Assembly (NCBI GenBank): GCA_022749755.1
Contig: CM040445.1
Location: 9,693,182 to 9,757,181, forward strand
Source of the DNA: Azadirachta indica
Taxonomy: Eukaryota; Streptophyta; Magnoliopsida; Sapindales; Meliaceae
Length of the DNA stretch: 64,000 nt
Direction: 5' to 3'
Part shown: in pieces, positions 9,661-53,137 of the stretch
How the letters are laid out: each line of letters opens with the position of its first letter
Numbering within the stretch: position 1 is the first letter of the stretch
Translations under genes and position numbers: made by a program
Notes under the pieces: generated by a model
What the model was told of the DNA's origin: nothing
What the model saw: only the letters and a program-made list of their open reading frames with translations
The model's database searches: none

Positions 9661-12394
9661 GAACTCGAAAAATGACTTTAGTTCGAGAAGGGCCGCACCT
9701 CTTGTTACGTACTATCACATGAAGATCCTTACGACATATTTTATTTCAAAATCAGAGAAGATGAAAATTTACGATTTTTTGGGCCGGAATCGTCAAAAAA
9801 TTTACGAAAATTTACGACTTCGGTTCGAGATTCACAGCATTTCTTGTTACTAACCACTGCGTTAGGATCCTTACAACGCATTTAATTTCCAAAATGGAGA
9901 AGATGAAAAAGTACAATTTTCGAGGCTGGAAACGGCAAATGTGATACGTACTCGAAAAATGACTGGTTCAAGAAGGCCGCATCTCTTATTACTCACTATC
10001 ACATGAGGATCCTTACGGCGCATTACTCACCATCACGTGAGGATCCTTACGGCGCATTTTATTCCGAAATCGGAGAAGATGAAAAGCACGAATTTTGGTG
10101 TCGAAATTGTAAAACGTGATACGGACTCGAAAAATGACTTTGATTCAAGAAGGGCCGCACCTCTTGAAGATCCTTACCGCACGCATTTTATTTCGAAATC
10201 GGAGAAGATAAAAAAGCACAATTTTTTTGGGCCAGAATCATCAAACTTGAAGTGGACTCGAAAAATGACTTCGGTTCGAGATTTGCAGTACTTCTTGTTA
10301 TTAACCATCACGTGAGAATCCTTATGATGCATTTTATTTCAAAAGTAAAAAAGATGAAAAGGTACGATTTTTGGGACCGGAATTGTCAAACGTGATAGGG
10401 ACTTTAAAAACGATTTTGTTTTGAGAAGGGCTGCACCTATTGTTATGCAGCATCACGTGAGGATCCTTACGGCATATTTTATTTCGAAATTGTAGAAGAT
10501 AAAAAAGTACGATTTTTTGTGCCGGAATTGTTAAACGTGAAACTGACTCGAAAAACGACTTCAGTTCGAGATTTACAGCACTTATGGTTACAAACCACGC
10601 GTAAGGATCCTTATTGTGCATTTTATTTCAAAAACAGGGAAGATAAAAAAGTACAATTTTCTGGATCAGAATTGTCAAACGTGATACGGATTCGAAAAAC
10701 GACTTCGTTTTGAGATTCGCCGCACTTCTTGTTACTCACCATCAGATGAGGATTCTTACAGCGCATTTTATTCCAAAATCGGAGAAGATGAAAAAGCACG
10801 ATTTTTGGAGCTGGAATTGTCAAACGTGATACGGACTCGAAAAATGACTTCGGCTCGAGAAGCGCCACACCTTTTGTTACTCGCCATTTCGTGAGAATCC
10901 TTACGGTGTATTATATTATAAAATCAGAGAAGATAAAAAAGTACAATTTTTTGTGCCGGAATTGTTAAATATGAAGTGGACTCGAAAAACGACTTTGGTT
11001 CGAGATTCACCGCACTTCTTGTTACTCACCATCACGTGAACATTCTTACGACACATTTTATTTTGAAATTGGAGAAGATGAAAAAGTACGATTTTTTGGG
11101 CCTGAATCATCAATCATGAAGTGGACTCGAAAAACGACTTTGGTTCGAGATTTGCAGCACTTATTGTTAGAAACCATGGCGTGAGGATCCTCATGGCGCA
11201 TTTTATTTCAAAAATGGAAAAGTACGATTTTTGAGGCCGGAATTGTCAATCGTGATACGTACTTGAAAAACGACTTCGGTTTGAGATTCACTGCACTTCT
11301 TGTTACTCACCATCACGTGAGGATCCTTAGGCCGCATTTTATTCCGAAATCGAAGATGATGAAAAAGCACGATTTTTTTGCCGGAATTGTCAAACGTGAT
11401 ATGGACACGAAAAATGACTTCAGTTTGAGAAGGATCGCATCTCTTATTACCCACCATCTCGTGAGGATCCCTACCGTGTATTTTATTTTGAAATCAAAGA
11501 AGATGAAAAAGGACGATTTTTTGGGCCGGAATTGTCAAACGTGAAGCGAACTCAAAAAACGAATTCGGTTCGAGATTTGTAGCATTTCTTGTTACTAACC
11601 ATTGCGTTAGGATCCTTACGACGTACTTTATTTCAAAAATGGAGAAGATGAAAAAGCACGATTTTTAGGGCCGGAATTTTCAAATGTGGTACGTACTAGA
11701 AAAACAACTTCGGTTTGAGAATGGCCACAACTCTTGTTACTCACCATCACGTGAGAATTCTTACAGTGCATTTATTCCGAAATCGAGAAGATGAAAAAGC
11801 ACGATTTTTGGGGCCGGAATTCTCAAACGTAAAGCAGAATCAAAAAATGACTTCGGTTCGAGAAGGGCTACACCTCTTGTTACTCACCATCATGTGAGGA
11901 TCCTTATGGCGCATTTTATTCCAAAATCAGAGTAGATAAAAAAGTATAATTTTTGGGGCCGGAATTGCAAACGTGATACGTACTCGAAGAAGGACTTCGG
12001 TTAGAGAAGGGTCGTTCCTCTTGTTACTCACCATCATTTGAGGAGCCATACGATGTATTTTATTTCGAAATTGTAGAAGATCAAAAAGCATGATTTTTGG
12101 GGCCGGAATTGTCAAACGTATACAAACTGAAAAAATGACTTCGGTTCGAGAAGTGCCATATCTCTTGTTACTCACCATCACTTGAGGATTCTTATGGTGC
12201 ATTTTATTTCGAAAACGGAAAAGATGAAAATGTACGATTTTTGGGGCCGGATTAGTCAAACGTGATACGCACTCGAAAAATGACTTTGGTTCGAGGTTTG
12301 CCATACTTCTTGTTACTCACCATCATGTGAGGATCCTTACGGTGCATTGGATTTTGAAAACGGAGAAGATGAAATAGTCAAATGTGATACGGAC
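9661..12394. repeat. Satellite block 1, ~145-146 bp monomer (about 19 copies)
   Basis: Landmark GAGGATCC-type sites recur at about 10313, 10459, 10603, 10748 and 10893, spacings of 144-146 bp. Each monomer carries, in order, CTCGAAAAACGACTTCGG, TCGAGAAGGGCCGC, CTTGTTACTCACCATCACG, GTGAGGATCCTTACGG, CATTTTATT, GAGAAGATGAAAAAG, and GCCGGAATTGTCAAACGTG. A deleted monomer (about 128 bp) lies near 10040-10167, and duplicated CTCACCATCACGTGAGG pieces are at 10010-10045. The first monomers at 9660-9850 are divergent. Most units keep the GGATCC (BamHI) core. Confidence 0.95.
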
Positions 12395-13242
12395 TGATAC
12401 GAACCCCGAGTATATTAAACTTGAGACCCAATATCTTTACACATGGAAGCAACTTCTTGGAAAGCTAAATCAGATTCACCCAAGTCTTTAACCCAATTTC
12501 AACTTGTGAAATAGAACCTTAGAATAAATACCCTCAAAATAATTAGCTTTGATTGTAAGAACCTTGATTCAAGCAAGAATCAAAATAAGAGAAAACACTC
12601 TCACTTTAATTTCATTCAAGAAAAGTAATTGCTGCCTCCATGGGAGCATGTGGCTGAATATATAAGGGTACAGGAGATAAATAACCCTAATTGGAGTGTT
12701 TGGCCACAAAATTAAACTTATTCTAACTTTAAATAAAATAAACTGAATTTGGGCTTAATAATTAACATTAACAGCCCAAACACAACAAATTATAAATATA
12801 TGTTTATAAATAAGACTAAAATAGATGATGGGCTTGAACAGCAACTTAGCCCAAACTGGCACATGTAATCCGAAACTTGCATCATGATGACGATCTGATT
12901 CGAACTGCAATTAAAAGAACTTGAACATGCTTGCTTAGCCTTGAGACATCGTTCGAATATGGTCTTATACAAATTTGAGAAGTTGAATTCCGTAGAAGCT
13001 TTAATCTTCAGGTTTTGCCTTCTTGTACTTGTGTCAATGTTACCAAGCTCTGATTATTGTCTTGAAGTCCAAGCTTGATATTTGACTCTTTCTTACACTC
13101 TTGAATTGTTGTAAGATCATCCCACAAACCTTGAATCATCCCATTCAATGCATCTTTGAATTTCTTCATTCTTGCTCTTGTAACGGGACCATTAGGTAGC
13201 TGAATTGGATCATTGCTCTTCTGTGCATCCGTATTTGCATCA
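12395..13242 (-). mobile_element. Solo LTR of family A (848 bp) with TSD CGGAC
   Basis: It begins TGATACGAACCCC and ends TTTGCATCA, flanked by CGGAC at 12390-12394 and 13243-13247. It matches the A1 5' LTR (28134-28982) in reverse orientation along its whole length. No internal sequence remains, so the LTRs of a full copy recombined and removed the body. The direct repeat is a satellite base string, so the insertion was made inside a monomer. Confidence 0.97.
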
Positions 13243-16200
13243 CGGACTCACAAAACAACTTCGGTTTGAGAAGGGTCGCCCCTCTTATTACTCACCATCA
13301 CATGAGGATCCTTACAGCACATTTTCTTTTGAAATCAGAGAAGATGAAAAAGTACAATTTTTTGGGCCGAAATTGTCAAACATGAAGCAGAATAAAAAAA
13401 TGACTTCGGTTTGAGAAGGGCCACACCTCTTGTTACTCACCATCACGTGAGAATCCTTACAACGCATTTTATTTTAAAAACGGAAAAGATGAAAAAGTAC
13501 GATTTTTGGGGCCGAAATTGTCAAATGTGATATGAACTCGAAAAACGACTTCGGTTTGAGATTCACTACACTTCTTGTTACTTACCATCACGTTAGGATC
13601 CTCACGGCACATTTTATTCCAAAATCGGAGAAGATGAAAAAGCACGATTTTTCGTCCCGAAATTGGCAAATGTAATACGGACTCAAAAAATGACTTTAGT
13701 TTGAGAAGGGCTGCATCTCTTATTACCCACCATCTCATGAGGATCCCTACCGCATATTTTATTTTGAAATCGGAGAAGATGAAAAAGTACGATTTTTTGG
13801 GCCGGAATCATCAAACGTGAAGTGGACTCGAAAAAAGACTTCGGTTCGAGATTCGCAGCATTTCTTATTACTAACCATTGCGTCAGGATCCTTATGGCAC
13901 ATTTTATTTCAAAAATGGAGAAGATGAAAAAGTACGATTTTCGGGGTCGAAATTTTCAAACGTGATACGTACTCGAAAAACGACTTCAGTTTGAGAATGG
14001 CTACAACTCTTGTTACTCACCATCAAGTGAGAATCCTTACAACGCATTTTATTCTGAAATCAGAGAAAATGAAAAAAAACACGATTTTTGGGGCCAGAAT
14101 TGTCAAACGTGATACGAACTTGAAAAATGACTTCGGTTCGAGAAGGGTCACACCTCTTGTTACTCCCCATCTTGTGAGGATCCTTATGGCCTATTTTATT
14201 CCAAAATTGGAGAAGATGAAAAGATACGATTTTTTGGGTCGGAATAGTCAAACATGCAGCGGACTCGAAAAACAACTTTGGTTCGAGGTTCACTGTTTCG
14301 AAAACGAAGAAGATGAAAACGTATGATTTTCGCGGCCGAAATAGTCAAACGTGATACGGACTCAAAAAACTATTTCGGTTTGAGAAGGGTCACTGCTCTT
14401 GCTACTCACCATCACGTAAGGATCCTTACGGCACATTTTCTTTTGAAATTGGAGAAGATGAAAAAGTACAACTTTTTGGGCTGGAATTGTCAAACGTGAA
14501 GCAGAATCAAAAAATGACTTCAGTTCGAGAAGGGCCATACCTCTTGTTCCTCACCATCACGTGAGGATCCTTATGGCGCATTTTATTCCAAAATCGGAGA
14601 AGATGAAAAAGCACGATTTTCAAGGCCGAAATTCCAAACGTGATACATACTCGAAAAATGACTTCGGCTCGAGAAGGATCGTATCTCTTGTTACTCACCA
14701 TCATGTGATGATCCATACGGTGTATTTTATTTCAAAATCATAGAAGATGAAAAAGCACGATTTTTTGGGCCGAAATTGTCAAACGTGATATACATTCAAA
14801 AAATGACTTCAGTTTGAGAAGCGCCACACCACTTGTTACTCACCATCATGTGAGGATTCTTATGATATATTTTATTCCGAAAACGGAGAAGATGAAAAAG
14901 TACAATTTTTGGGGCTGAAATAGACAAACGTGATGCGGACTCGAAAAACTACTTCGGTTTGAGAAGGGTCACCCCTCTTGTTACTCACAATCACGTAAGG
15001 ATCCTTATGGCGCATTTTCTTTTGAAATTGGAGAAGATGAAAAAGTACAATTTTTTGGGCCGAAATTGTCAAACGTGAAACAGAATCAAAAAATGACTTC
15101 GGTTTGAGAAGGGTCACACCTCTTATTACTCATCATCACATGAGGATCCTTACAACACATTTTATTTCAAAAACGGAGAAAATAAAAAAATATGAGTTTT
15201 GGGGCAGGCATTGTCAAACATAATACGGATTCAAAAAACGACTTTGGTTCAAGAAGTGCTGTGTCTCTTTTTACTCACCGTCACATGAGAAAACTGACGG
15301 CACATTTTGTTTAAAAAACGGAGAAAATGAAAAGGTACGATTTTAACGGCTGGAATTGTCAAACTTGATACGGACTCAAAAAACGACTTCGGTTTGAGAG
15401 GGGCTGCATGTTTTGTTACTCACCATAATGTGAGGATCCTTACGGTGCATTTTATTTTGAAAACGGAATAGATAAAAAAGTACGATTTTCGGGGTCGGAA
15501 TTGTCAAACGTGATACGTACTTGAAAACCGATTTCAGTTCGAGAAGGTCGCACATTTTGTTACTCACCATTACGTGAGGATCCTTAGGACGCATTTTATT
15601 CCGAAATTGGAGAAAATGAAAAAGTAAAATTTTTGGGTCGGAATAGTCAAATGTGAAGCGGACTCGAAAAACGACTTCGGTTCGAGATTTCCCACACCTC
15701 TTGTTACTCACCATCACGTAAGGATCCTTACGGCACATTTTATTTTGAAATCGGAGAAGATAAAAATGTACGATTTTTTGGGACGGAATTGTCAAACATG
15801 AAGCGAAATCAAAAAATGATTTTGGTTTGAGAAGGGCCGTACCTCTTGTTCCTCACCATCACGTGAGGATTCTTACGGTGCAGTTTATTTCAAAATTGGA
15901 GAAGATGAAAAAGTACGATTTTCGGGGCTGGAATTGCAAACGTGATACGTACTCAAAAAACGACTTCGGTTCGAGAAGGGTCATACCTCTTGTTACTCAT
16001 CATCATGTGAGGATCCATACGTTGTATTTATTTCGAAATCGTAGAAGATCAAAAAGCACGATTTTTGGGGCCGGAATTGTCAAACGTGATACAGACTCAA
16101 AAAATGACTTCGGTTCGAGAATCGCCACACCTCTTGTTACTCATCATCACATGAGGATTCTTATGGTGCATTTTACTTCAAAAATGGAGAAGATAAAAAA

Positions 16201-19200
16201 GTACGATTTTCAGGGTCGGAATAGTCAAACGTGATACAGACTCGAAAAACAACTTTGGATTGAGGTTCGCCGCACTTCTTGTTACTCACCGTCATGTGAG
16301 GATCCTTAGGGTGCATTTTATTCCGAAATCGGAGAAGATGAAAAAGCACGATTTTTCAGGCCGGAATTGGCAAACGTGATACGGACTTAAAAAATGATTT
16401 CGGTTCGAGAATCGTTACACCTCTTGTTACTCGTCATCACATGAGGTTTCTTATGGCATTTTACTTCAAAAATGGAGAAGATGAAAAAGTACGATTTTCA
16501 GGGTTGGAATAGTCAAACGTGATATGGACTCGAAAAACAACTTTGATTTGAGGTTCGCCGCACTTCTTGTTACTCACCATCACGTTAGGATCCTCACGGC
16601 ACATTTTATTCCAAAATCGGAGAAGATGAAAAAGCACGATTTTTCGAGCCGGAATTGGCAAACGTGATACGGACTCAAAAAATGACTTCAGTTTGAGAAG
16701 AGCCACATCTCTTATTATCCACCATCTCGTGAGGATCCCCACCGCATATTTTATTTTGAAATCGAAGAAAATGAAAAAGTACAATTTTTTGAGCCGGAAT
16801 TGTCAAACGTGAAGCAGAATCAAAAAATGACTTCGGTTCGAGAAGGGCCACATCTCTTGTTACTCACGATTATGTGAGGATCCTTACGATGCATTTTATT
16901 TCAAAAACGCAGAAGATAAAAAAGTACGATTTTTGGGGCAGGCATTGTCAAACGTGATACAGACTCGAAAAACGACTTAGGTTTGAGACAGGTCTTATAT
17001 CTTGTTACTCACCATCATTTGAGGATCCTTACGGCACTTTTTATTTATAAAATGGAGAAGATGAAAAAGTACGATTTTCGAGGCTGTAATCGTCAAACGT
17101 AATACGGACTCCAAAAACAACTTTGGCTCAAAAAGCGCTGCTCCTCTTTTTACTCACCGTCACGTGATAAAACTGACGGCGCATTTTGTTTCAAAAACGA
17201 AGAAGATGAAAAGGTACGATTTTAGCCGTTGGAATTGTCAAACTTGATACGGACTCGAAAAATGACTTCGGTCGGTTTGAGAGGGGCTGCACGTTTGTTA
17301 CTCACCATCACATGAGGATCATTATGGCACATTTTATTTCAAAAATGCAGTAGATGAAAAAGTATGATTTTCGGGGCCGAAATTGTCAAACGTGATACGT
17401 ACTCAAAAAATGACTTCGGTTCGAGAAGGGTCGCACCTCTTGTTACTCACCATCAAGTGAAGATCCTTAGGTTCCATTTTATTCTGAAATCGGAGAAGAT
17501 GAAAAAGTACAATTTTTTGGGTCGGAATAGTCAAATGTGAAGTGGACTCAAAAAACGACTTCGGTTCAAGATTAGCCACACCTCTTGTTACTCACCATCA
17601 TGTGAGGATCCTTACGGCGTATTTTATTTTGAAAACAGAGAAGATGAAAATGTACGATTTTTTGGGCCGGAATTGTCAAACATGAAGCGGAATGAAAAAA
17701 TGATTTGGTTCGAGAAGGGCCGCACTTCTTGTTCCTCACCATCACGTGAGGATCCTTACAGTGCAGTTTATTCCAAAATCGGAAAAGATGAAGAAATACG
17801 ATTTTTCCGGTCAGAGTAGTCAAACATGAAGCGGACTCGAAAAACGACTTCGGTTAGAGAGTCACCACACTTCTGGTTACTCACCATCACATCAATTCCC
17901 TACCGCATATTTTATTTCAAAAACAGAGAAGATGAAAAAGTACGATTTTTGGGCCACAATTGTCAAATGTGATACATACTCAAGAAACAACTATGGTTCG
18001 AGAAGGGCCGCACCTCTTGTTACTCATCATCATGTAAGGATCCTTACGATGCATTTTATTCAGAAATCGGAGAAGATAAAAAAGTACGATTTTTGGGGCC
18101 GCAATCGTCAAATGGAATATGGACTTGAAAAACGATTTCGGTTCAACAAAGAACCGCACCTCTTTTTCCTCACCATCATGTGAGGATAGTGACGGTGCAT
18201 TTAATTTTGAAAATGTAGAAGATGAAATGGTACAATTTTACCGGCCAGAATTGTCAAACATGATACAAACTCGAAAAATGACTTAGGTTTAATAGGGCTG
18301 TGTATCTTGTTACTCACCATCACATGAGGATTCTTATGGCGCTTTTTATTTTGAAAACGGAGAAGATGAAAAAGTACGATTTTCGGGGCCGAAATTGTCA
18401 AACATGATACGGACTCAAAAAACGACTTCGGCTTGAGACACGATGCACATCTTGTTATCGACCATTATGTGAGGATCCTTACAGTGCATTTTATTCAAAA
18501 ATCGGACAAGATGAAAAAGTACAATTTTTTGGGTCGGAATAGTCAAGCATGAAGCGGACTCGAAAAATGTGTTTGGTTCGAGATTCGCCTTACTTCTTGT
18601 TAATCACCATTGCGTGAGGTGCCTATTGCGCATTTTATTTCGAAAATGGAGAAGATGAAAATGTACGATTTTTGGGGTCGGAATTATCAAACGTGATACG
18701 AACTCGAGAAATGACTTCGGTGCAAGAATAGCCGCACTTCTTGTTACTCACCATGACATGAGGATCCTTATAATGCATTTTATTCTGAAATCAGAGAAGA
18801 TAAAAAAGTACAATTTTTTAGGTCGGAATAGTCAAACGTGAAGCGGACTAAAAAAACGACTTCGCTTCGAGATTCGCCGCACTTTTTTTTACTTACCATC
18901 ATGTGAGAATATCTATGGTGCATTTTATTTTGAAATCGGAGAAGATGAAAAAGTATGATTTTGTGAGCCGAAATCATCAAACGTGATATGGACTCGAAAA
19001 ACGGCTTCAGTTTGAGATTCGCCACACTTCTTGTTACTCACCATCACATGATGATCCTTACGGTGTATTTTATTTTATAATTGGAGAAGATAAAAAAGTA
19101 CGATTTTTTGGGCCGGAATTGTCAAACGTGAAGCAGAATCAAAAAATGATTTCGATTCGAGAAGGGCCGCACCTCTTGTTCCTCACCATCACGTCAGGAT

Positions 19201-21430
19201 CCTTATGACGCATTTTATTCTGAAATTGGAGAAGATGAAAAAGTACGATTTTTTGGGTCGGAATAGTCAAACGTGAAGCGGACTAGGAAAACGACTTCGG
19301 TTCGAGATTCGCCACACTTCTTGTTACTCACAATCGTGTGAGAATCCCTATGGCATGTTTTATTTCGAAATCATAGAAAATGAAAGACTACGATTTTCCG
19401 GGTCGGAATTGTCAAACATGATACGAACTCGAAAAACGACTTAAGTTCGAAACGGTCGCACATCTTATTACACATCATAACATGAGGATGCTTACGGCAC
19501 TTTTAATTTCGCAAACGGAGAAGATGAAAAAGTACGATTTTCGGAGCCGGAATCGTCAAATGTAATACGGACTTGAAAAATGACTTCGGTTGAACAAAGG
19601 GCCGCACCTCTTTTTACTCACCATCACGTGAGTATACTGACGGTTCATTTTATTTAAAAAATGGAGAAGACGAAATGGTAGAATTTTAGCGGCAAGAATT
19701 GTCAAATGTGATACGGACTCGGAAAACGAGTTAGGTTTGAGACAGGCTGCGCATCTTGTTACTCACCATCACGTGAGGATCCTTACGGCGTATTTTATTT
19801 TGAAAACGAAGAAGATGAAAAAGTACAATTTTTGTCGCTGGAATTGTCGAACATGATACGAACTTGAAAAACAATTTCAGTTCAAGACACGGCGCACGTA
19901 TTGTTACCGACCATCACATGAGGATCCTTACGGCGTATTATATTTGGAAACCTGAGAAGATGAAAAGAACGATTTTCGTGGCTGAAATAGTCAAATGTAA
20001 TATGGACTCGAAACACTACTTCGGTTCGAGAAGGGTCGCCCCTCTTGTTACTCACCATCACGTGAGGATCCTTACAGCTCAGTTTATTTTGAAATCGGAG
20101 AAAATGAGAAAACACAATTTTCTGGACCGGAATTGTCAAACGTGATACGAACTCAAAAAATGACTTCGGTTTGAGATTCGCTGCACTTCTTGTTACTGAC
20201 CATCACTTGAGGATCCTTACGGTGTATTTTATTTTAAAATTGGAGAAGATGAAAAAGTACGATTTTTTGGGCCGGAATTGTCAAATGTGAAGCGGAATCA
20301 AAAAATGATTTCGGTTCGAGAAGGGCGCATCTCTTGTTCCTCACCATCACGTGAGGATCCTTACGGCGTTTTTTATTCCAAAATCATAGAAGATGAAAAA
20401 ATACCATTTTTTGGGTTGGAATAGTCAAACGTGAAGTGGATTTGAAAAACGTGTTCAGTTCGAGATTCCCTGCACTTCTTTTTACTCATCATCGCGTAAA
20501 GATCCTTACGGCACAATTTTATTTAAAAAACGGAGAAGATGATAAAGTACGATTTTCGGGATCAAAATCGTCAAATGTAATACGGTCTTGAAAAACGACT
20601 TCGGTTCATCAAAGGGCTGCACCTCTTTTTCCTAACAATCACCTGAGTATGTATACTCACGGTGCATTTTATTTCGAAAATAGAGAAGATGAAATGGTAC
20701 AATTTTAGCGGCTAGAATTGTGAAACGTGATACGGACTCGAAAAACGACTTAGATTTGAGATGGGCCACGCATTTTGTTACTCACCATCCCGTGAGGATC
20801 CTTACGGCACATTTTATTTAAAAAAAAAGAAGATGAAAAAGTACAATTTTCAGGGCTGGAATTGTCAAACATGATACGGACTCCAAAAATGATTTCGGTT
20901 CGAGACACGGCACACGTATTGTTACCGACCATGATGTGAGGATCCTTACGACATATTATATTTGGTAACCGGAGAAGATGAGAAGAACAATTTTCAGGGC
21001 CAAAATAGTCAAACGTAATATGGACTCAAAACACTATTTCGGTTCGAGAAAGGTCGCCCCTCTTGTTATTCACCATCATGTGAGAATCCTTACGGCGCAT
21101 TTTATTTTGAAATCGGAGAAGATGAAAAAGTACGATTTTGTGGGCCGAAATCATCAAACGTGATGCAGACTTGAAAAATGACTTCGTTTTGAAATTCGCC
21201 GCACTTCTTGTTACTGACCATCATTTTAGGATCCTTACGGTGTATTTTTTTTGGAAATTGTTAAGATGAAAAAGTACGATTTTTTGGGCCGGAATTGTCA
21301 AACGTGAAGTGGAATTAAAAAATGATTTCGGTTCGAGAAGGGCCGCACCTCTTGTTCCTCACCATCACGTGAGGATCCTTACGGCTCATTTTATTCCAAA
21401 ATCTTAGAAGATGAAAAAATACAATTTTTT
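13243..21430. repeat. Satellite block 2, ~145-146 bp monomer (about 56 copies)
   Basis: The longest block. Monomers resemble block 1 (GAAGATGAAAAAGTACG and GGGCCGCACCTCTTG types). Variant units replace the GGATCC landmark by GAAAACTGACGG or TATACTGACGG forms at about 15287, 17167, 18183, 19631 and 20646. Long-range similarity is visible: units around 11575-11790 match 13860-14060, and units around 13590-13770 match 16580-16770. The array ends inside a monomer at the B2 fragment. Confidence 0.95.
17150..21200. repeat. Higher-order repeat zone, period ~1,017 bp (7 monomers)
   Basis: The diagnostic unit with CACGTATTGTTACCGACC and a following GTATTATATTTGG occurs at 19895 and 20913, 1018 bp apart. 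The TATACTGACGG-type unit that precedes it by two monomers occurs at 19631 and 20646, 1015 bp apart. Another pair of variant units is 17167 and 18183, 1016 bp apart. Seven 145-bp monomers make 1015 bp. Adjacent monomers differ more than units one period apart, which defines a higher-order repeat. Confidence 0.7.
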
Positions 21431-23811: not shown

Positions 23812-24212
23812 AGGTTTTAAAAGTCATAAGGTTTGAATTTATTTTTGTCAAATTGTTAGGTAGGATTGATAGCCTAACTTTTGACATTTTCCTTTTGTAT
23901 TTGCCTATAAAAAGGCTTTCATTTCTTGAAATGAAACAAGCAAGTCGAGTGTTAAGTTATTTCGTACAAGTTCTTGTTCTTGAACTCTACAAGTTTAATT
24001 TCTTATAGCGTTCTAAACAACCAAACTTATCATCTAGATTTTTAAGTATTTTCTTAAGGGTCTTGGGTGGCGTTTGAGTAAATCATAGTCTTAATTCTTA
24101 TCTAGATAGGTATCGGGTTAAGGCTCTATAAACTTGCGTCTTAAAGAAATCTTGGGGTTCTTTACTATATTCAGTGTTGGGTTTTATCACGATATTGGCA
24201 AGGTTCGTATCA
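23812..24212 (+). mobile_element. B3: 3' part of a family-B LTR (5'-truncated)
   Basis: It runs from ATAAGGTTTTAAAAGTCATAA to AAGGTTCGTATCA, i.e. the downstream half of a family-B LTR on the plus strand, including the TATA box, R and U5. Satellite flanks both sides. The start is an internal LTR position, so this is either a truncated solo LTR or a deletion remnant. No TSD was found. Confidence 0.9.
23904..23916 (+). promoter_or_regulatory. Family-B LTR TATA box
   Basis: CCTATAAAAAGGC is a good plant TATA box about 300 bp before the LTR end, at the same LTR position in several copies (weaker, CCAATAAAAAGGC, at 52814 in B8). It would start retroelement transcription. Confidence 0.6.
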
Positions 24213-27200
24213 CGAGCCGCACATTTTGTTACTCACCATTGCTTGAGAATCCTTAATTTGTATTTTATTTCGAAAATGGAAAAGTTGAAAATGTACAATT
24301 TTTGAGGTTGGAATTGTCAAAAGTGATACGGATTCAAAAACCAATTTTGGTTCGAAACTGGTCACATGTCTTATTACTCACCATTGCATGATGATCCTAA
24401 AGGTGCATTTTATTTGAAAAACGGAGAAATTAAAAATGTACATTTTTTGGGGTCGGAATTGTCAGACGTGATATGGACTCAAAAAACGACGTTGGCTCAA
24501 GACGGGTCACACCTCTTGTTATTGACCATCCCATGAGGATCTTTACTGTGTATTTTATTTCGAAAACAGAGAAGATGAAAATGCACATTTTTGGTGATTA
24601 GAGTTGTCAAATGTTATACGAACTGAAAAAATGACTTTTGTTCAAGACAAGCCGCATGTCTTATTACCCACCATCATGTGAGGATCGTTATGGTGCATTT
24701 TATTTAGAAAACGGAGAAAATGAAAAAGTACGATTTTTGGGGCCAGAATTGTCAAACGTGATACGGATTTGAAAAATGACTTTTGTTCGAGAGAGGCTGC
24801 ACCTCTTGTTACTGAGCATCACATTAGGATCCTTATGACACATTTTATTTCAAAAATGGAGAAGATGAAAACGTATGATTTTTGGGGTCGATATTGTCAA
24901 ACGTGATATGGACTCGAAAAATGACTTCGGTTCGAGATGGGCCGCAAGTCTTATTACTTACCATCGTGTGAGGATGAAAAAGTACGATTTTTGGGGCTGA
25001 AATTATCAAATGTGATACGACTCGAAAAACGACTTCATTTCGACATGTGCTGCACGTCTTATTACTTCGGTTCGAGACAGGCCGCACATCTTGTCACTTA
25101 CCATCGTGTGAGGATCTTTACGGTGCATTTTATTTTGAAAACGAAGAAGTTGAAAATTTGTACGATTTTCGGGGCCTGAATTGTTAAACTTGATACAAAC
25201 TCGAAAAACCACTTCGTTTTTGAGACGTTGTATTACTCATGATAGTGTGGTAATCCTTATAGTTTATTTTATTTCGAAAAGAGAGAAGTTAAAAACGTAC
25301 GACTTTTTATGCCGGAATCGTCAAACGTGATACGGACTCCAAAAACAACTTCGGTTTGAGACGTGCCTCACGTCCTGTTACTCACAATCGCGTGAGGATC
25401 TTTGCGGTGCATTTTATTTTGAAAACAGAGAAGTTGAAAACGTAAGTTTTTTAGGTCTAGAATTGTGAAATGTGATGCGGACTCGAAAAACAACATTGTG
25501 TTGAGACGAGCCGCACGTCTTGTTACTTATCATTGCGTGAGGATCCTTACAGTACATTTAATTTAAAAAACGGAAAAGTTGAAAACCTATGATTTTCGGG
25601 GCCGGAATTGTCAAAAGCGATACAAACTCAAAAAATGAATTAAGTTCGAGGCGAGCTGCACGTCTTCTTACTTATTATTATCGCATGAGGATTCTTGCAG
25701 TGCATTTTATTTCGAAAACAGAGAAGTTAAAAACGTATAATTTTCGATGCCGAAGCTATCAAACGTGATACAGACTCGAAAAATGACTTCATTTCGAGAT
25801 GGGCTGCACATTTTGTCACTCACCATTGCATTAGGATCCTTATGGTTCATTTTATTTCAAAAACAGAGAATTTGAAAATGTACGATTTTTGGGGCTGGAA
25901 TTGTCAAACATGATACAGACTTAAAAAACGACTTCGTTTTGAGACAGGCTGCACGTCTGGTTAGTCACCATAGCGTGAGGATCTTTACGGCACATTTTAC
26001 TTCAAAAACAGAGAAGTTGAAAACATTCTTTTTTGAGGGTGTAATTGTCAAGCGTGATATGGACTCGAAAAATACATTGTTTCAAGACAGGTCTCATGTC
26101 TTCTTACTCATCATCACGCGAGGATCCTTACGGTGCATTTTATTCTGAAAACGAAGAACTTGAAATTGAAAATGTACGATTTTCGGGGTCGGAATTGTCA
26201 AACGCGATACGGACGCGAAAACGACATTGTTTTGAGACGGGCTTCACCTCTTGTTACTCACCATCACATGAAAATCTTTTAGATGTATTTTATTTCAAAA
26301 ACGAAGAAGTTGAAAACGTACGATTTTTAGGGCCAGATTTGTCACACATGATACAGACACGAAAAACGATTTCAATTCGAGATGGGCCGCACGTCTTGTT
26401 ACTCACCATCGTGTGAAGATCTACATACTGCATTTTATTTTGAAAACGAAGAAGATGTAAAAGTATGATTTTTGGGGGTAGAATTATCAAACGTGATAGG
26501 GCTCAAAAAACGACTTCGGTTTGACACGTGTCGCATGTCTTGTCACTCACGATCGTGTGATGATCTTTACGGTGAAATTTATTGTAAAAATGGAAAAGTT
26601 GAAAAGGTACAATATTTTAGGTCGGCATTGTCAAATGTGATACGGCTCAAAAAATGACTTTGGTTCGAGACATGCCTCATGTCTTATTATTCAAAATCAC
26701 ATAAGGATCCTTGCGGTGTATTTTATTTCAAAAACGGAAAAGATGAAAAAGTACGATTTCGATGCTTGATATTTCGAACATGATGCGAACTCGAAAAACG
26801 ACTTCATTTAGAAACGGATTGCACATTTTCTTACTCTTCATCATGTGAGGATCTTTAAGGTGTATTTTATTTCAAAAACAGAAAGGATGAAAAAGTACAA
26901 TTTTCGGGGCTGGAATTGTCAAATGTGATACGGACTGGAAAATGATTTCGTTTCGAGTTGGCGCATATTTTGTTACTCACCATCGTGCGAGGATTCCTAT
27001 GGTGTATTTTATTTCGAAAATGACAATTTCATTTTGAAAACGTACGATATTCGGGACCGAAATTGTGGAACGTGATTCGGACTCAAAAAATGATATTATT
27101 TCTAGATGGGCCGCACCTTTTGTTACTCACCAATGTGTGAACATCCTTACGGTTTATGTTATTTCGGAAACGGAGAAGATGAAAAAGTACAATTTTCGGG

Positions 27201-28133
27201 GTCGAACTTGTCAAATGTGAAACGGACTCGAATAATGAGTAAGGTTTAAGACGGGCTGCAACTCTTGCTACTCGCCATCACGTGAGAATCCTTACGGTGT
27301 ATTTTATTTTGAAAATGGAAAAGATTAAAAAGTACAATTTTCGAGACCAGAATTGTCAGACACAAACCAATTTTAAAAAAAACTTTGTTTCGACACGAGC
27401 TTCAGGTCTGGTTACTCATCACTGCATGAGGATCCTTACAGTGCATTTTATTTCAAAAATGAAGAAGTTGAGGACGTTCGATTTTCGGGGCCGAAATTGT
27501 CAAACGTGATGCAGACTCGAAAAACAACTTTGTTTCAAGACGGACTACACCTCTTGTTACTCACCATCATGTGAGGATATTTATGGTATATTTTATTTGG
27601 AAAAGGAAGAAGTTGAAAATGTACGATTTTCGGAGTCGGAATTGTCAAACGTGATATGGACTCGAAAAACGACTTTATTTTGAGATGGGCCGCACGTCTT
27701 ATTATCACCATCCCGTGTGGATCCGTCACAGTGCATTTTATTTTGAAAACGGAGAAGTTGAAAATGTAAAATTTTCAGGGCCGGAATTGTCAAACGTGAT
27801 GCAAACTCGAAAAACGACTTCGTTTCAAGATGGCTGCACGTCTGGTTACTCACCATTGCATGAGGATTCTTACAATGCATTTTCTTTCGAAAATGGAAAA
27901 GATTAAAAATTACGATTTTCAGGGCCGGAATTATCAAACTTGATAGAGACTTGAAAAATGACATTGTTTTGAGACAGGTCGCATGTCTTGTTACTCATCA
28001 TCATGTGAGGATGCTTATGAGGCATTTTATTTTGATAACGAAGAAATTGAGAACGTACGATTTTCGAGGCCGGAATCGTCGAACGTGATACGTACTCATA
28101 AAACGGTATTGTTTCGAGACAGGCCGCACCACT
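24213..28133. repeat. Satellite block 4 (about 27 monomers, second subfamily)
   Basis: Same period, but typical units read GAGACGGGCCGCACGTCTTG and GAGAAGTTGAAAACGTACG, differing from blocks 1-2 at several linked positions. Divergence between neighbours looks higher than in block 2. One unit is shortened near 24970-25080. A1 interrupts the array at 28133. Confidence 0.93.
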
Positions 28134-28982
28134 TGATGCAAATACGGATGCACACAAGAGCAATGATCCAATTCAGCTACCTAATGGTCCCGTTACAAGA
28201 GCAAGAATGAAGAAATTCAAAGATGCATTGAATGGGATTATTCAAGGTTTGTGGGATGATCTTACAACAATTCAAGAGTGTAAGAAAGAGTCAAATTTCA
28301 AGCTTGGACTTCAAGACAATAATCAGAGCTTGGTAACATTGACACAAGTACAAGAAAGCAAAACCTGAAGATTAAAGCTTCTACGGAATTCAACTTCTCA
28401 AATTTGTATAAGACCATATTCGAACGATGTCTCAAGGCTAAGCAAGCATGTTCAAGTTCTTTTAATTGCAGTTCGAATCAGATCGTCATCATGATGCAAG
28501 TTTCGGATTCCATGTGCCAGTTTGGGCTAAGTTGCTGTTCAAGCCCATCATCTATTTTAGTCTTATTTATAAACATATATTTATAATTTGTTATGTGTTT
28601 GGGCTGTTAATGGTAATTATTAAGTCCAAATTCAGTTTATTTTATTTAAAGTTAGAATAAGTTTAATTTTGTGGCCAAACACTCCAATTAGGGTTACTTA
28701 TCTCCTGTACCCTTATATATTCAGCCACATGCTCCCATGGAGGCAGCAATTACTTTTTCGAATGAAATTAAATTGAGAGTGTTTTCTCTTATTTTGATTC
28801 TTGCTTGAATTAAGGTTCTTACAATCAAAGCTAATTATTTTGAGGGTATTTATTGTAAGGTTCTATTTCACAAGTTGAAATTGGGTTACAGACTTGGGTG
28901 AATCTGATTTAGCTTTCCAAGAAGTTGCTTCCATGCGTAAAGATATTGGGTCTCAAGTTTAATATACTCGGGGTTCGTATCA
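28134..28982 (+). repeat. A1 5' LTR (849 bp)
   Basis: TGATGCAAATACGG to GGGTTCGTATCA. Same family as the solo LTR at 12395-13242. Its first 193 bases correspond to the integrase C-terminal codons in the 3' copy. Confidence 0.96.
28711..28722 (+). promoter_or_regulatory. Family-A LTR TATA box
   Basis: CCTTATATATTC lies about 265 bp before the LTR end and is the best TATA candidate in the LTR. It is present in reverse at about 12655-12666 in the solo LTR. Confidence 0.55.
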
Positions 28983-28985
28983 GTT

Positions 28986-28997
28986 TGGTATCAGAGC
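28986..28997 (+). other. A1 primer-binding site, initiator-Met tRNA type
   Basis: TGGTATCAGAGC, three bases after the LTR end, complements the 3' end of initiator-Met tRNA. Confidence 0.93.
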
Positions 28998-29776
28998 TAC
29001 GGCTCTAAATCAGGTTATATCGTCTTTCAAATTTGTTTATTTGTTTCTTTAGTTTCTGAGTCTGTTTTGCTTCAATTCCATTTATTTTCGTTTTTATGTC
29101 TATCATATCAAAAAAAAAAAAAAAAAGAAGAGGGTTTTCTTTCAATCTCCAATTCGGTTGATTTAGTCTTTGTCATTCGTTTCTTTTCTGTCTGTGTCTA
29201 TTTATTTTTGTTTGGTCACTCCTACGTGTTTGGAGGTAAAAATAAAAATAAAAAAATAAAAAAAAAAGGAGAGAAAAAGCAAAGCCTTTGGCTAAGAGAA
29301 GAAAAAAAAAAAAAAGGGGCAGGTGTTGAACGAAAATAAGGAAAATAAAAAGAAAAATCATATTGCTTCAAGGAGTTTGACCAAATCAAGCCTACATTCC
29401 AAAACAAGCTTCCTAATCTTTCCATAATTTTTGGTTGACTTTCCTATTCCTGTACTGATTTTTTTTTCTTTTCTTTGTTCTTAATCTTTCCTTTATCATT
29501 TCTAAAAATCTATTTCCTAGTCCTTATGCTTTCCCAGTTTGTTGCCTATCTAAATTAGTTTTATTTTACTTTTCATTGTATTTAGTAAGTTTGTATAAAT
29601 TTAGATTTTTTGCAACTATTCTTAATAAGAGAATTAGAGTGGAAAAAGACTTAGTGTGAGCTCATCTAGAGAAAAGCCATAAAATTAAGTGTGAAACACG
29701 AGCGAACTTGAGTGAAACACGTGAGGGAGTGAAGTGAGAAAGTTATTCTTTTGCTTTACTAATTTTGTCTTGAAGG
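28998..29776 (+). other. A1 leader
   Basis: Low-complexity leader with A-rich runs (29108-29129, 29239-29273, 29299-29316). No coding sequence is recognised; a Lys-rich open frame at 29067-29339 is an effect of A-richness. Confidence 0.7.
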
Positions 29777-31366
29777 ATGAGTGGACAAGCAAGAAATCCA
29801 CAAAGTAAGATAGATCGATTCCAAGCTTTAACCGAGTTGTTGTAAGCCATGGATAGAAAATATAGAGAGTTGTTTGATAGAATGGAGAGGCTGGAGGTTT
29901 CAACCACAAGGGGGCAGCCACCTAATGCTCCTAATCCAACCATGCAAACTAGGCGAGTTCCGAGAAGAGCTCAATTAGATGATGGCTTTAATGATAGTGA
30001 ATCGCTTGATGACAATGGAGAGGAAAAAGAGGTGAGACCGAGGGTAAGAAACAATAACAATAGCAACAGTGGGGTCAAACTGAAAATTCCACCATTTTAT
30101 GGAAGAATGGATCCTGAGGCATACTTAGATTGGGAAACGAAGATTGAATTAGTGTTTGATTGCAATAACTACACTGAATCCAAGAAGTTGAAGCTTGCCG
30201 TGGTTGTTTTTGAAGCTTATGCTATTACTTGGTGGGATGATACTAAGTAAAAGCGAAGGAGAAATAGGGAAAGGCCCATTGAAGAGTGGAGAGATCTGAA
30301 ATCCATCATGCGCAAGAGATTTGTACCAAGCTACTACTATAGAGAATTGTATAATCGACTTCAAAATCTCACTCAAAGGTCTAAGAGTGTTGAGGAATAC
30401 TACAAGGAGATGGAGGTAGCAATGATAAGAGCAAATGTAGAGGAAGATAATGAGGCTACAATGGCAAGATTTCTCAATGGTTTGAACAAAGAGATTTCTA
30501 ATGTGGTTGAATTGCAGCCATATATGGAGCTAGAAGACTTGCTTCACCTTGCATTGAAGGTTGAGAAGCAACTGAAAAAGAGAGGTCGTACAAGTCAGTT
30601 TTCCTCCTATACTTCTGCATTCAAATCAAATTGGAGGAAAGATGATAAGGCTTCGTCATCCAAGCCTAAAATCGAATCCAAAGAGTTTCCCAAAACATCC
30701 AACTCAAGCAAAGACAAGGGTAAGTTTGATTCTACTACTAACACCAGAAATATTAAATGTTTTAAATGTCAAGGTGTAGGACATTACAAGCGGGATTGCC
30801 CAAATCAAAGAACCATATTCATGCTTGAGGGAGAGTACTATTCGGCCAGTGAAGAGGAGAATGAACAAGAGACGATGCCAACTCTTGAAGATGCAAGTGA
30901 TGAAGAAGGGGATGAGCAATTTACTATGGCAGAAAGTGGTAAGGCTCTTGTATCAAGAAGAGTTTTGAATATGCAAGTCCAACAGGAAGAATGTGATCAA
31001 AGAGAGAATCTCTTCCATACTAGGTGTCTTGTAAATGATAGGGTTTGTGATGTGATAATTGATGGTGGCAGTGTAACTAATGTTGCTAGTACTACTCTTG
31101 TAGAAAAGCTAGGGTTACCTACTTTAAAACATCCACATCCTTACAAGTTGAAGTGGCTTAATGATTGTGGGGAAATTAGGGTGACAAAGCAAGTTCTTGT
31201 TGCCTTCAAAATAGGCAAGTATAGAGATGAGTTGTTGTTTGATGTAGTGCCCATGCATGCTGGCCATCTCTTGTTGGGACGCCCTTGGCAATTTGACAGA
31301 AGGGTGTTACATAATAGTTTTACAAATCATTATACTTTTGAGAAGGATGGGAAGAAAATATGGTGA
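29777..31366 (+). pseudogene. A1 gag and protease
   Basis: One frame from ATG 29777 (MSGQARNPQSKIDRF) to 31366, broken by stops at 29843-29845 and 30248-30250. Capsid landmarks are [54 protein letters not shown] and the MARFLNGLN block. The nucleocapsid knuckle [14 protein letters not shown] is at about 30758. After an acidic stretch, the retropepsin has [13 protein letters not shown] (catalytic Asp codon at about 31061) and [13 protein letters not shown]. The protein is cut at KKIW by the deletion joining it to RT. Gag would build the particle; the protease would process the polyprotein. Confidence 0.92.
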
Positions 31367-31753
31367 TGAGTGGGTGATGAGTGGAAAACTGCATTCAAAA
31401 CAAAATATGGTCTGTATGAATGGTTAGTTATGCCTTTTGGTTTAACTAATGCACCTAGTACTTTCATGAGGCTTATGAATCATGTTTTGAAAGATTTAAT
31501 TGGAAAATTTGTTGTTGTATACTTTGATGATATCCTTGTATATTCCAAAAATTCGAATGAACATGTAGAACATTTTAGGGCTGTACTTGATATTTTGAGG
31601 AAAGAAAAGTTATATGCTAACTTTAAAAAGTGTTCTTTTTGTTTAGATCGAATTGTGTTTTTAGGTTTCGTGGTAAGTGTTCAAGGCGTTGAAGTTGATG
31701 AAGAGAAGGTAAGTGCTATTAAAAATTGGCCTACTCCTAAATCAGTGAGGTAA
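31367..31753 (+). pseudogene. A1 reverse transcriptase, N-terminally deleted
   Basis: Starts at [17 protein letters not shown], so the fingers and first catalytic-Asp region are missing. The repeated GTGATGAGTGG at the junction (31363-31384) suggests a short-homology deletion. The palm is good: [12 protein letters not shown] and intact [11 protein letters not shown], followed by [19 protein letters not shown] frameshift at about 31747 separates it from RNase H. Confidence 0.9.
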
Positions 31754-32211
31754 GAAGTTTTCATGGATTGGCTAGTTTTTATAGACGGTTTATAAAAGAT
31801 TTTAGCACCATTGCGGCACCCCTTACAGAGGTAATTAAAAAGAATTGTACTTTTAAGTGGGACAAAGAACAAGAGCATGCATTTACTTTATTGAAAGATA
31901 AGCTTTGTAAGGCACCCATTCTTGCCTTGCCTAACTTTGCTAATACTTTTGAACTTGAATGTGATGCATCAGGATTGGGCATTGGGGTTGTTCTTATGCA
32001 AGAAAAGAGGCCAATTGCCTACTTTAGTGAAAAGCTCCATGGCGCCTCATTGAATTATCCTACTTACGACAAAGAGCTTTATGCTTTGGTTAGAGCTTTG
32101 GAAAATTGGCAGCATTACTTATGGCCTAAGGAATTTGTTATTCATACTGACCATCAATCTTTGAAGTTCATTAAAAGTCAAGGTAAGTTGAACAAACGAC
32201 ATGCCAAATAG
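31754..32211 (+). pseudogene. A1 RNase H
   Basis: Reads [55 protein letters not shown] and HTDHQSLKF, containing the D, E and D residues expected of this domain. It ends with TAG at 32209-32211 in a Trp position and integrase continues in the same frame. Confidence 0.9.
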
Positions 32212-33771
32212 GTCGAATTCATTGAGACTTTTCCTTATGTGATTAAATACAAGCAAGGTAAAGATAATGTTGTGGCTGATGCACTTTCAAGGAGGTATAC
32301 TTTACTTAATGCTTTAGATGCAAGAATGCTTGGATTTGAACATATTAAAACTCTTTATGATGATGATACTGACTTTTCTAGCATTTTCAAAGCATGTGAG
32401 AAAGCTGCATATGGTAAGTTCTATAGAATGGATGGGTTTTTGTTTAAAGAAAATAAATTGTGCATACCTATTTGTTCTCTGAGAGAATTGCTTGTAAAAG
32501 AGTCTCATGGGGGTGGTTTAATGGGACATTTTGGCATTACAAAAACTTTAGACACTTTAGATGAACACTTCTATTGGCCTAAAATGAAAAATGATGTGCA
32601 AAAAGTTTATGATAGATGTGTTGTGTGCAAACAAGCTAAATCTAAAGTTTTAAATCAAGGTTTGTATACTCCTTTACCTGTTTCTAGTGAACCTTGGACT
32701 AATATTTCCATAGATTTTGTTTTGGGTTTACCTAGATCGAAAAAGGGAAAAGATTCTATTTTTGTAGTGGTTGATAGGTTTTCCAAGATGTCACATTTTA
32801 TACCTTGTAATAAAACTGATGATGCCACTAATATTGCAAATCTGTTCTTTAGGGAAGTAGTGCATTTGCATGGCATTCCAAAAACTATAGTTAGTGATAG
32901 AGATGTGAAGTTTCTAAGTCATTTTTGGAAAGTTTTGTGGAGTAAATTGGGTACTAAATTGTTATATTCTACTACTTGTCACCCACAAACTGATGGTCAA
33001 ACAGAAGTTGTGAATAGGACTTTGGGAACTTTGTTGCGTGCTATTGTCCAAAAGAATTTGAAGAATTGGGAAGAGTGCATTCCATTTGTTGAATTCGCAT
33101 ATAATAGAGTTGTGCATTCTACTACTGGTTTTTCACCATTTGAAATTGTTTATGGTTTTAACCCACTAACCCCTTTGGATTTAGTTCCTTTCCTTTGTGA
33201 TGAAAGAACTAGCTTAGATGGGAAAACAACGGCAGAATTGGTGAGAAAATTACATGCAGATGTGCGCAAGAACATTGAAAAGAAGAATCAACAAATTACA
33301 AGCCAAGTAAACAAAGGACGAAGGTGCGTTGTATTCGAGCCTGGTGACTGGGTTTGGGTACATATGCGAAAAGAAAGGTTTCCAACTCAAAGGAAGTCAA
33401 AGCTACATCCAAGAGGAGATGGTCCCTTTCAAGTTGTTGAGAAGATCAATGATAATGCCTATAAATTGGATCTTCCTGGTGAGTATACTGTGAATGTAAC
33501 TTTTAATGTGGCTGATCTTTCTCCTTTTGATGTAGATGGTGAAGATTCGTGGACGAATCATCTTGAGGAGCGAGGGAATGATGCAAATACGGATGCACAC
33601 AAGAGCAATGATCCAATTCAGCTACCTAATGGTCCCGTTACAAGAGCAAGAATGAAGAAATTCAAAGATGCATTGAATGGGATGATTCAAGGTTTGTGGG
33701 ATGATCTTACAACAATTCAAGAGTGTAAGAAAGAGTCAAATTTCAAGCTTGGACTTCAAGACAATAATTAG
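32212..33771 (+). pseudogene. A1 integrase with C-terminal tail in the 3' LTR
   Basis: The open frame from 32212 holds [19 protein letters not shown] (RNase H end), the HHCC zinc module ([21 protein letters not shown]), the DDE core with Asp in SIDFVLGLP, Asp in [10 protein letters not shown] and Glu in [11 protein letters not shown], and the GPF/Y module [19 protein letters not shown]. The last 64 codons, from about [10 protein letters not shown], lie inside the 3' LTR and contain [15 protein letters not shown]. All catalytic residues are present. Integrase inserts the cDNA; in chromoviruses the C-terminal tail is thought to guide chromatin targeting. The upstream in-frame TAG leaves it as part of a broken polyprotein. 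Confidence 0.92.
33565..33578 (+). other. A1 polypurine tract
   Basis: GAGGAGCGAGGGAA directly precedes the 3' LTR and is where plus-strand DNA synthesis would be primed. It is read in frame as integrase codons. Confidence 0.8.
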
Positions 33772-33987
33772 AGCTTGGTAACATTGACACAAGTACAAGA
33801 AGGCAAAACCTGAAGATTAAAGCTTCTACGGAATTCAACTTCTCAAATTTGTATAAAACCATATTCGAACGATGTCTCAAGGCTAAGCAAGCATGTTCAA
33901 GTTCTTTTAATTGCAGTTCGAATCAGATCGTCATCATGATGCAAGTTTCGGATTCCATGTGCCAGTTTGGGCTAAGTTGCTGTTCAA
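33579..33987 (+). repeat. A1 3' LTR, truncated (409 of 849 bp)
   Basis: Identical layout to the 5' LTR up to TTGCTGTTCAA, then satellite. Four differences from the 5' LTR were counted by eye. The TATA, R and U5 parts are missing, so transcript termination would be lost. Confidence 0.93.
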
Positions 33988-34911
33988 TAGGCTCTGATTT
34001 TTGGGACCGGAATTGTCAAACGTGAACCAATTCGTAAAACAATTTTGTTTCGAGATGAGTCGCATGTCTTGTTAGTCATCTTTGCGTGAGGATTCTTATG
34101 TTGTATTTTATTTTAAAAATAAAGAAGTTAAAAACGTACGATTTTTGGGGTCGAAATTGTGAAACGTGATACGGAGTCAATAAACGACTTCGGTTCAAGA
34201 CGTGCTGCAAGTCTAGTTATTCACGATTGGATGAGGATCTTTACGGTGTATTTTATTTTGAGAGCGAAGAAGCTGAAAATGTACGATTTTTGGAATCAGA
34301 ATCGTCAAACGCGAACCAATTCAAAAAACAACTTTATTTCGAAATAGGCCGCATGTCTTCTTACTTATTATCGCGTAAGCATCCTTACAGTGTATTTTAT
34401 TTTTAAAATAAATAAGTTGAAAATGCATGATTTTTGGGGCTGGAAGCGTCAAACGTGATACGGACTGAATAAATGACTCCGGTTCGAGACATGGCACATG
34501 TCTTTTTACTCATGATTGCGTGAGGATCCTTACGGTACATTTTATTTTGAAAATGGAGAAGTTGATAACGTATGATTTTTTGGACCGGAATTGTCAAACA
34601 AGAACCAATTCGAAAAACAACATTGTTTCGAGACTGGCCGCACCTCTTGTTACTCACTATCGTGTAAGCATCCTTACAGTGTATTTTATTTTGAAAACAG
34701 AGAAGATGAAAAAGTATGATTTTCTGGATCAGAATTGTCAAACGTGATATGGACTCAAAAAAGGACTTCGTTTTGAGATGGGTTGCACATCTTATTACTG
34801 ATCATGGTATGAGGATCCTTACGGTGTATTTTATTTCGATAACGGAGAAGTTGAAAACTTACAATTTTCAAGGCCGGAGTTGTCAAACGTGATACAAACT
34901 CAAAAAGGCGT
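33988..34911. repeat. Satellite block 5 (about 6 monomers)
   Basis: Block 4-type units (GAAGTTGAAAATGTACG forms), some with the sequence CGTGAACCAATTCG, which is also seen in block 4 as ACACAAACCAATT near 27360. The array ends at 34911 against a family-B protease fragment. Confidence 0.9.
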
Positions 34912-36892: not shown

Positions 36893-37187
36893 ATGTATGA
36901 TATAGGTGATTACATCATTTAAGATTCTTAAAATTACACAGACGGATTACAATTTTTTAACATTTCCACATTAATCTTCTTTAACATACATGTATCTTGA
37001 ATTGCATTTGAATCACACATCTTTTTAATTAGTCTATTTAAGATACTTTGTAATGTCTTGGCTCTAGCTCTTAATCAGTCTACTCGGCACCCTTAGCGGA
37101 TCATATGAATGTTGCAATTGAATGTCACTAGCCTCACATGTGAGTTTCTCCTCTTGTTTGTGTGGTTGTACAACTTCATTTGCATCA
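36893..37187 (-). repeat. B5 3' LTR, truncated
   Basis: On the minus strand it begins TGATGCAAATGAAG and includes the integrase-tail codons and one of the GTAAGTGATTACATCAT-type repeats, then stops near 36893. Confidence 0.85.
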
Positions 37188-44237: not shown

Positions 44238-44249
44238 GCTCTGATACCA
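44238..44249 (-). other. B6 primer-binding site, initiator-Met tRNA type
   Basis: The minus strand reads TGGTATCAGAGC, two bases from the LTR end. Confidence 0.93.
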
Positions 44250-44251
44250 AA

Positions 44252-45061: not shown

Positions 45062-45066
45062 TATAT

Positions 45067-53123: not shown

Positions 53124-53125
53124 TT

Positions 53126-53137
53126 TGGTATCAGAGC
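53126..53137 (+). other. B8 primer-binding site, initiator-Met tRNA type
   Basis: TGGTATCAGAGC, two bases past the LTR end, as in the other family-B copies. Confidence 0.93.

Follow-up and report, generated by a model that had tools for sequence, protein, structure and literature searches.

CentO of rice and the 178-bp repeat of Arabidopsis are classical centromeric satellites of plants, and satellites of this class are homogenised and bound by CENH3. That tandem satellites occur in centromere regions rich in CRM elements is well known: CentC of maize likewise has a unit of nucleosome scale and forms tandem arrays at clusters of CRM retrotransposons (PMC3648361). Among tree genomes, tandem families of the same unit length as the one treated here have been reported, namely the Populus 145-bp repeat (PMC8584087) and Palv148 and Sar145 of Salicaceae, of which Palv148 is non-centromeric and Sar145 is centromeric on one chromosome (PMC12046899); their hosts belong to another order, and the likeness is one of description, not of compared sequences. 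The present work concerns a satellite family of neem (Azadirachta indica) lying in a window of 64,000 nucleotides (C6:9693182-9757181), that is to say, the whole stretch of DNA that was analysed. In contrast to the classical centromeric satellites, its units are 75% alike and no higher-order repeat was found, and the family is known here from sequence alone. Probably it is a satellite in decay, pericentromeric or once centromeric, which CRM elements have since colonised.

The array was delimited with a hidden Markov model (HMM) profile of the unit, which gave 124 matches in the window, 108 of them full length and all on the plus strand (minus strand, 0), while no match arose in five Markov copies (first order) of the window. 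The matches fall into five blocks with a summed length of 16,925 bp (about 16.9 kb), which bears out the original prediction of about 115 units in five blocks over some 17 kb, and Tandem Repeats Finder also reported arrays of 144-145 bp from about 10.1 to 34.9 kb of the window. The period had been predicted as 145-146 bp; its near-constant length stands, but the value is corrected to 144-145 bp, 66 of the 123 spacings between successive units being 145 bp, 31 being 144 bp and only 2 being 146 bp. Altogether 99 of the 123 spacings fall at 144-146 bp, which is the head-to-tail arrangement of near-constant length that is characteristic of satellite DNA. The BamHI core GGATCC, which had been called conserved, is the commonest state of its site but not a constant one, being exact in 56 of the 109 start-aligned units. 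Stop-to-stop open reading frames (ORFs) of at least 150 amino acids number 17 in the window, and two of them (156 and 158 amino acids) lie inside the blocks; the satellite is neither a product of chance nor coding. Three features go beyond the original prediction: the gaps between the blocks are pieces of long terminal repeat (LTR) retrotransposons, the units share only 75% identity on average, and their state shifts along the array. In the genome set, which comprises 280.8 Mb in 21 contigs, the array lies near the middle of C6, since this contig is 18.2 Mb long; the fourteen contigs C1-C14 are taken to be the neem chromosomes. An intronless piece of a PPR protein, encoded on C6 at 17.02 Mb, shares 93% identity with a protein of Melia azedarach over 95% of its length, against 66% for Pistacia as the next named match and 76% for one match without a name; the host thus points to Meliaceae, and an origin from Populus, which the unit length had suggested, was rejected. 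A search with the Ty3 integrase gave Fagus and other plants and did not narrow the host down.

The array is old and is decaying through C-to-T changes that are strongest at CG. The mean pairwise identity of the 108 full units is 0.754 (0.84 to the consensus), and the two most similar units of the window share 95.7%. Since the similarity of two units is independent of their distance counted in units, staying flat by lag in blocks 1, 2 and 4, no higher-order repeat was found there; block 4 is internally more diverged than block 2 (values in Table 1). The transition rate at C or G is 25.5% in the CG context, 18% in CHG and 11.6% in CHH, and this order is the pattern expected of long-lasting cytosine methylation. 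For comparison, 12 other loci were included, which together with the window hold 467 full units; within these loci the mean identity is 0.74-0.81, and CG is the highest transition class in 11 of the 12. The exception is locus L028, where CHG slightly exceeds CG; at loci L024 (3 units) and L025, CHH exceeds CHG. Homogenised units with higher-order repeats, as in an active centromeric satellite, were not seen in the assembled arrays of the window or of the 12 other loci. Divergence, lack of homogenisation and interruption by LTRs would be expected of a relic or a flank more than of a CENH3 array under active homogenisation.

Two further candidates concerning the unit were dropped. The length of the unit had been compared with one nucleosome core, and the length alone does fit; however, when the columns were shuffled 300 times, 75% of the shuffles gave an A/T dinucleotide signal at 9.5-11 bp at least as strong as the observed one, and nucleosome phasing was not retained. 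The strict CENP-B box, whose pattern we take to be NTTCGNNNNANNCGGGN, occurs in 0 of the 467 units. A CENP-B-like form with the spacing off by one is present in 16 of the 467 units and in the consensus of one of the two subfamilies described below (subfamily B), but its positions are no better conserved than the whole unit (0.80 against 0.83 in subfamily B and 0.74 against 0.85 in subfamily A), and a loose match arose in 55 of 20,000 shuffles of the consensus.

The array has been entered by retrotransposons of CRM type, which belong to two LTR families, A and B. A solo LTR of family A splits a unit between blocks 1 and 2 and is flanked by the 5-bp duplication CGGAC (12390-12394 and 13243-13247), so its insertion is later than the satellite. 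Between blocks 4 and 5 lies a Ty3 element in which the string TGGTATCAGAGC, presumably the tRNA-Met primer site, stands at 28986; the same string is found at 53126 in a copy of family B (52340-53123), whose LTR ends and primer site are of the same kind. The integrase frame of the Ty3 element enters the 3′ LTR by about 190 bp (LTR start 33579, end of the stop codon 33771), and a long C-terminal tail follows the GPF region, a CR motif being possible there. LTR ends of the form TGATG..T/CATCA, this primer site and an integrase frame reaching into the 3′ LTR characterise CRM group A, whose members are the truly centromeric retrotransposons (PMC3059260), and all three are shared by the inserted element. 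Its two LTRs are 99.0% alike over 405 bp, and at the neem substitution rate of 1.3e-8 per site and year (PMC3507787) the insertion would therefore be about 0.4 million years old. Since the 3′ LTR is truncated and the satellite restarts elsewhere in the unit, at model position 51, a deletion probably occurred after the insertion.

Along the window and between contigs the unit also varies in state. Nine consensus sites separate subfamily A (C6; less clearly C5) from subfamily B (C1, C2, C4 and C12). In bins of nine units, the window is of the A state from 9.7 to about 21.4 kb, intermediate from 22.8 kb and B-like from 24.7 kb; the A-minus-B score is 2.6 in the bin starting at 22820 (block 3 and the first units of block 4) and -2.7, -0.4 and -2.4 in the bins from 24682, the last of which includes block 5. 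C3 seems to carry a variant of its own, because a two-unit query from C3 gave 529 matches and those listed are on C3 except for three on C2.

At the scale of the genome, a 30-base core with at most 3 mismatches gave 591 matches, 3 of them exact, and a degenerate core of 35 places gave 6,844; the reversed control gave 0 in both cases. The latter pattern was calibrated locally, where it found 404 units against 467 full-length units or 528 profile matches, and scaling by these figures would put the copy number of the assembly at roughly 7,900-8,900 units, or 1.1-1.3 Mb (0.4-0.5%). It undercounts some variants, since it finds 0 units of the C3 locus L036 (two full and two partial) and 14 in locus L037, and mirrored duplicate segments inflate the count in the opposite direction. 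The satellite fraction of 0.38% in the 2012 neem draft is near this estimate, perhaps by chance, and is given there without unit, sequence or location (PMC3507787). Among the matches listed, the satellite is found on at least 12 of the 14 large contigs (C1, C2, C3, C4, C5, C6, C7, C9, C10, C11, C12 and C14), with two sites on several of them; none was seen on C8 and C13, and one 35-base string recurs three times in 24 kb of C4. Fourteen ten-kb loci in three arm stretches on C6, C7 and C8 gave 0 HMM matches. A 5-kb stretch in the CRM cluster of C3, which was picked before the C3 satellite was known, holds two full and two partial units.

The centromeric or pericentromeric location of the family is well supported, because the satellite places coincide with the CRM clusters on most large contigs. 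For each LTR family the 40 best copies were used, out of 659 (A) and 1078 (B) candidates, after 2 (A) and 5 (B) short rows belonging to the same places had been left out. In family A, 34 of these 40 best copies have a satellite place no more than 0.5 Mb away, as against a mean of 4.6 and a maximum of 12 in 2000 uniform random placements on the same contigs; for family B the figure is 22 of 40, the random mean being 3.7 and the maximum 10. With the copies of the window excluded, 33 of 39 (A) and 20 of 38 (B) remain, and before the C3 places were added the counts were 27/40 and 19/40 against random means of 3.5 and 3.05. The control is conservative, since the lengths of C10, C11, C13 and C14 are lower bounds. 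The 80 LTR copies form one to three clusters (gaps below 1.2 Mb) on each contig from C1 to C14, and at least 11 of the 14 have a satellite place and a CRM copy separated by no more than 0.5 Mb. Among the 24 copies with no listed satellite in this range, C8, C10 and C13 account for 19; the rest are on C1, C2, C9 and C12.

It is on the whole likely, then, that the family is a satellite in decay, that it is pericentromeric or was formerly centromeric, that CRM elements have colonised it, and that it today forms heterochromatin beside the centromere, or the remains of one, and would not be the main platform of the kinetochore. The centromeric role that the original prediction had ventured accordingly divides into two parts: its location is backed by the co-location with CRM, but units that are diverged and non-homogenised, bear the signature of methylation decay and are broken by LTRs fit an active role less well. 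Under this reading, an old family would have spread across the pericentromeres of most chromosomes by unequal exchange and transfer between chromosomes, perhaps as the former centromere sequence, which may have bound CENH3 or may still do so. Homogenisation would later have ceased at the array of the window, and the units, if kept methylated, would have lost cytosines to thymine. The integrases of CRM elements are thought to recognise centromeric chromatin, and the array may thus have become a landing zone for CRM retrotransposons that arrived recently; that a young insertion sits beside old units supports this. A bolder extension, which we regard as possible but doubtful, is a turnover of the neem centromere caught part way, with an ancestral satellite decaying while young CRM elements take the same sites. 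Several points weigh against the reading as a whole. The CRM clusters on C8, C10 and C13 have no satellite within 0.5 Mb among the matches listed; only the best 40 of 659 and of 1078 candidates were scored, with mirrored copies that are not independent; and under a uniform control, an association with CRM looks the same as one with any other repeats that accumulate in heterochromatin. In addition, the published assembly of 281 Mb and 14 chromosomes covers about 73.2% of the flow-cytometry size (PMC9069239), so that homogenised arrays could be missing, and map positions may be partly wrong, because two clusters occur on several contigs and are in some cases mirrored.

The main alternative takes up precisely this missing part: the family would be a working centromeric satellite, with CENH3 on a younger homogeneous core that is missing from the assembly, and the window would be its worn edge. 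It could account for the co-location with CRM clusters, for the variants enriched on particular contigs (A, B and the one on C3) and for such local repetition as the 35-base string of C4 among the matches listed, and the roughly 27% of the estimated genome outside the published assembly (PMC9069239) leaves room for such a core. What makes it unlikely, though not to be passed over, is that no homogenised run was seen: 3 of the 591 core matches are exact, the closest pair of units in the window stays at 95.7%, and the 12 loci keep to 0.74-0.81. That the satellite is heterochromatic and unrelated to centromere function, as in the non-centromeric arrays of poplar and willow, has a precedent in Salicaceae, where tandem arrays lie mostly away from CENH3 (PMC12046899), and it would agree with the satellite place of C10 at 16.5 Mb, which is at least 2.3 Mb from the CRM cluster of that contig; set against the 11 of 14 contigs on which a satellite place and a CRM copy lie within 0.5 Mb of each other, this explanation is improbable.

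An origin of the tandem unit from a retrotransposon, or its carriage within one, is very improbable. In maize there are tandem repeats derived from CRM elements, CRM1TR and CRM4TR (PMC3648361), which likewise lie in CRM-rich regions and have locus-specific variants, and LTR pieces stand between all the blocks of the window. However, those repeats are made of CRM sequence, whereas the neem unit has no match to the CRM-type elements in the rest of the window, where the unit HMM gave nothing convincing (best E 0.15), and derivation from the window's own elements was dropped; the solo LTR, moreover, is later than the unit it splits. Least credible of all is an assembly artefact in which copies were multiplied by unpurged haplotigs or mis-scaffolding. 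The reported heterozygosity of 0.896% (PMC9069239), the mirror-image copies on C12, C5 and C2 and a 4.6-kb inverted copy of 100% identity on C5 would favour it, but it explains duplicate places and inflated counts and not the array itself, whose units are 75% alike in the window and are interrupted by an LTR that is flanked by a target-site duplication. The preferred reading remains that of a decaying satellite, either pericentromeric or formerly centromeric; the features of the window are collected in Table 1.

Table 1. Features of the satellite array and its surroundings, in positions of the 64,000-nucleotide window.
Feature	Position	Strand	Basis and remarks
Satellite block 1, subfamily A	9660..12394	+	20 HMM matches (HMM extent 9660-12396); end set by the CGGAC duplication of the solo LTR
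Solo LTR, CRM-type family A	12395..13242	-	98% inverted match to 28138-28980; ends read in the sequence
Satellite block 2, subfamily A, longest run	13243..21435	+	58 HMM matches (extent from 13242); internal mean identity 0.776, no lag peak
CRM-type family B LTR fragments between blocks 2 and 3	21436..22625	.	BLAST to 43724-43912, 2221-2690, 2780-3254, 44582-45057 and others
Satellite block 3, intermediate A/B states	22626..23782	+	10 HMM matches
Family B LTR fragment between blocks 3 and 4	23783..24211	-	Inverted, 86.9% and 87.8% to 38439-38841 and 44253-44661, and others
Satellite block 4, B-like, more diverged	24212..28133	+	29 HMM matches (extent to 28137); internal mean identity 0.737
Ty3 element, CRM group A architecture, between blocks 4 and 5	28134..33987	+	Pfam domains, LTR match, ends, primer site
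5′ LTR of Ty3 element	28134-28982	+	Begins TGATG, ends TATCA
gag/pol ORF pieces of Ty3 element	between 30251 and 33771	+	Pfam: gag, RNase H, integrase; protease match weak
Integrase ORF	32212..33771	+	Integrase_H2C2 and SH3_Tf2-1 above cutoff; rve below cutoff
3′ LTR of Ty3 element	from 33579	+	Cut short at ~409 bp
Satellite block 5, B-like	33996..34906	+	7 HMM matches
Flank with repeated Ty3 pieces	34907..64000	.	Self-BLAST; Pfam domains for some ORFs; family B LTRs 38438-39251, 44010-45061, 52340-53123, 60667-61479

Some observations on the LTR families and on the window outside the array can be added. A repeat of 26-28 bp (ACGTAAGCAATGACGTCA...) occurs in 2-4 copies at window positions 2872-2944, 44676-44732, 52664-52723, 56972-57025 and 63938-64000 and at 849-948 of locus L037; its sites in the window lie within family B LTR matches, and it contains TGACGTCA, which we take to be CRE-like. 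At C10:14205178-14208952 there are three family B LTR copies in the same orientation, about 1.48 kb apart, perhaps a tandem made of LTRs. The small nucleolar RNA snoR71 (RF00097, 56.3 bits) was found at 7515-7621 of the window, beside ORFs that look gag-like by eye and gave no Pfam match where tested.

The assembly itself shows several irregularities around the satellite places. Mirror-image places are found on C12 (0.31/5.84 Mb), C5 (2.4-2.7/9.5-9.8 Mb), C1 (1.1/11.7 Mb) and C2 (21.8-23.4 Mb); the copies are equal in spacing on C12 and C5 and near-equal on C2, and on C12 the two copies show no difference across the query. The 4.6-kb stretch mentioned above belongs to locus L033, with its inverted copy about 0.18 Mb off. 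Such mirror copies may be unpurged haplotigs, mis-scaffolding or recent inverted duplications. At 22.70-22.78 Mb of C2, the matches step by about 57.3 kb (22722844/22780141 and 22714879/22772179), which suggests large tandem copies of a segment holding the satellite. With regard to the completeness of the genome set, locus L009 (C5:18951229-18954253) holds a copy of the plastid gene matK in the nuclear genome, interrupted by stops and frame breaks. With up to 3 mismatches allowed, the matK primer pattern matches nowhere else, and a plastid contig therefore seems to be absent from the set.

The satellite family seems to be undescribed so far. In the literature searched, in which subscription journals were thinly covered, there was no description of a neem satellite or centromere beyond the percentage in PMC3507787, and the terms satellite, tandem and centromer occur 0 times in the main text of PMC9069239; nor was a match to a named satellite found in the literature, as judged without a satellite or repeat database. 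No centromere-region satellite of neem thus seems to have been located before. On most chromosomes the family sits where clusters of CRM retrotransposons are found and is therefore useful for marking the probable centromere regions; combined with LTR families A and B, it provides candidate centromere-region markers on all 14 large contigs and a probe for fluorescence in situ hybridisation (FISH). Its places also raise the possibility of scaffolding errors near the centromeres in the assembly. In summary, the family offers a way to ask which of the two, satellites or retrotransposons, are the carriers of CENH3 in Meliaceae.

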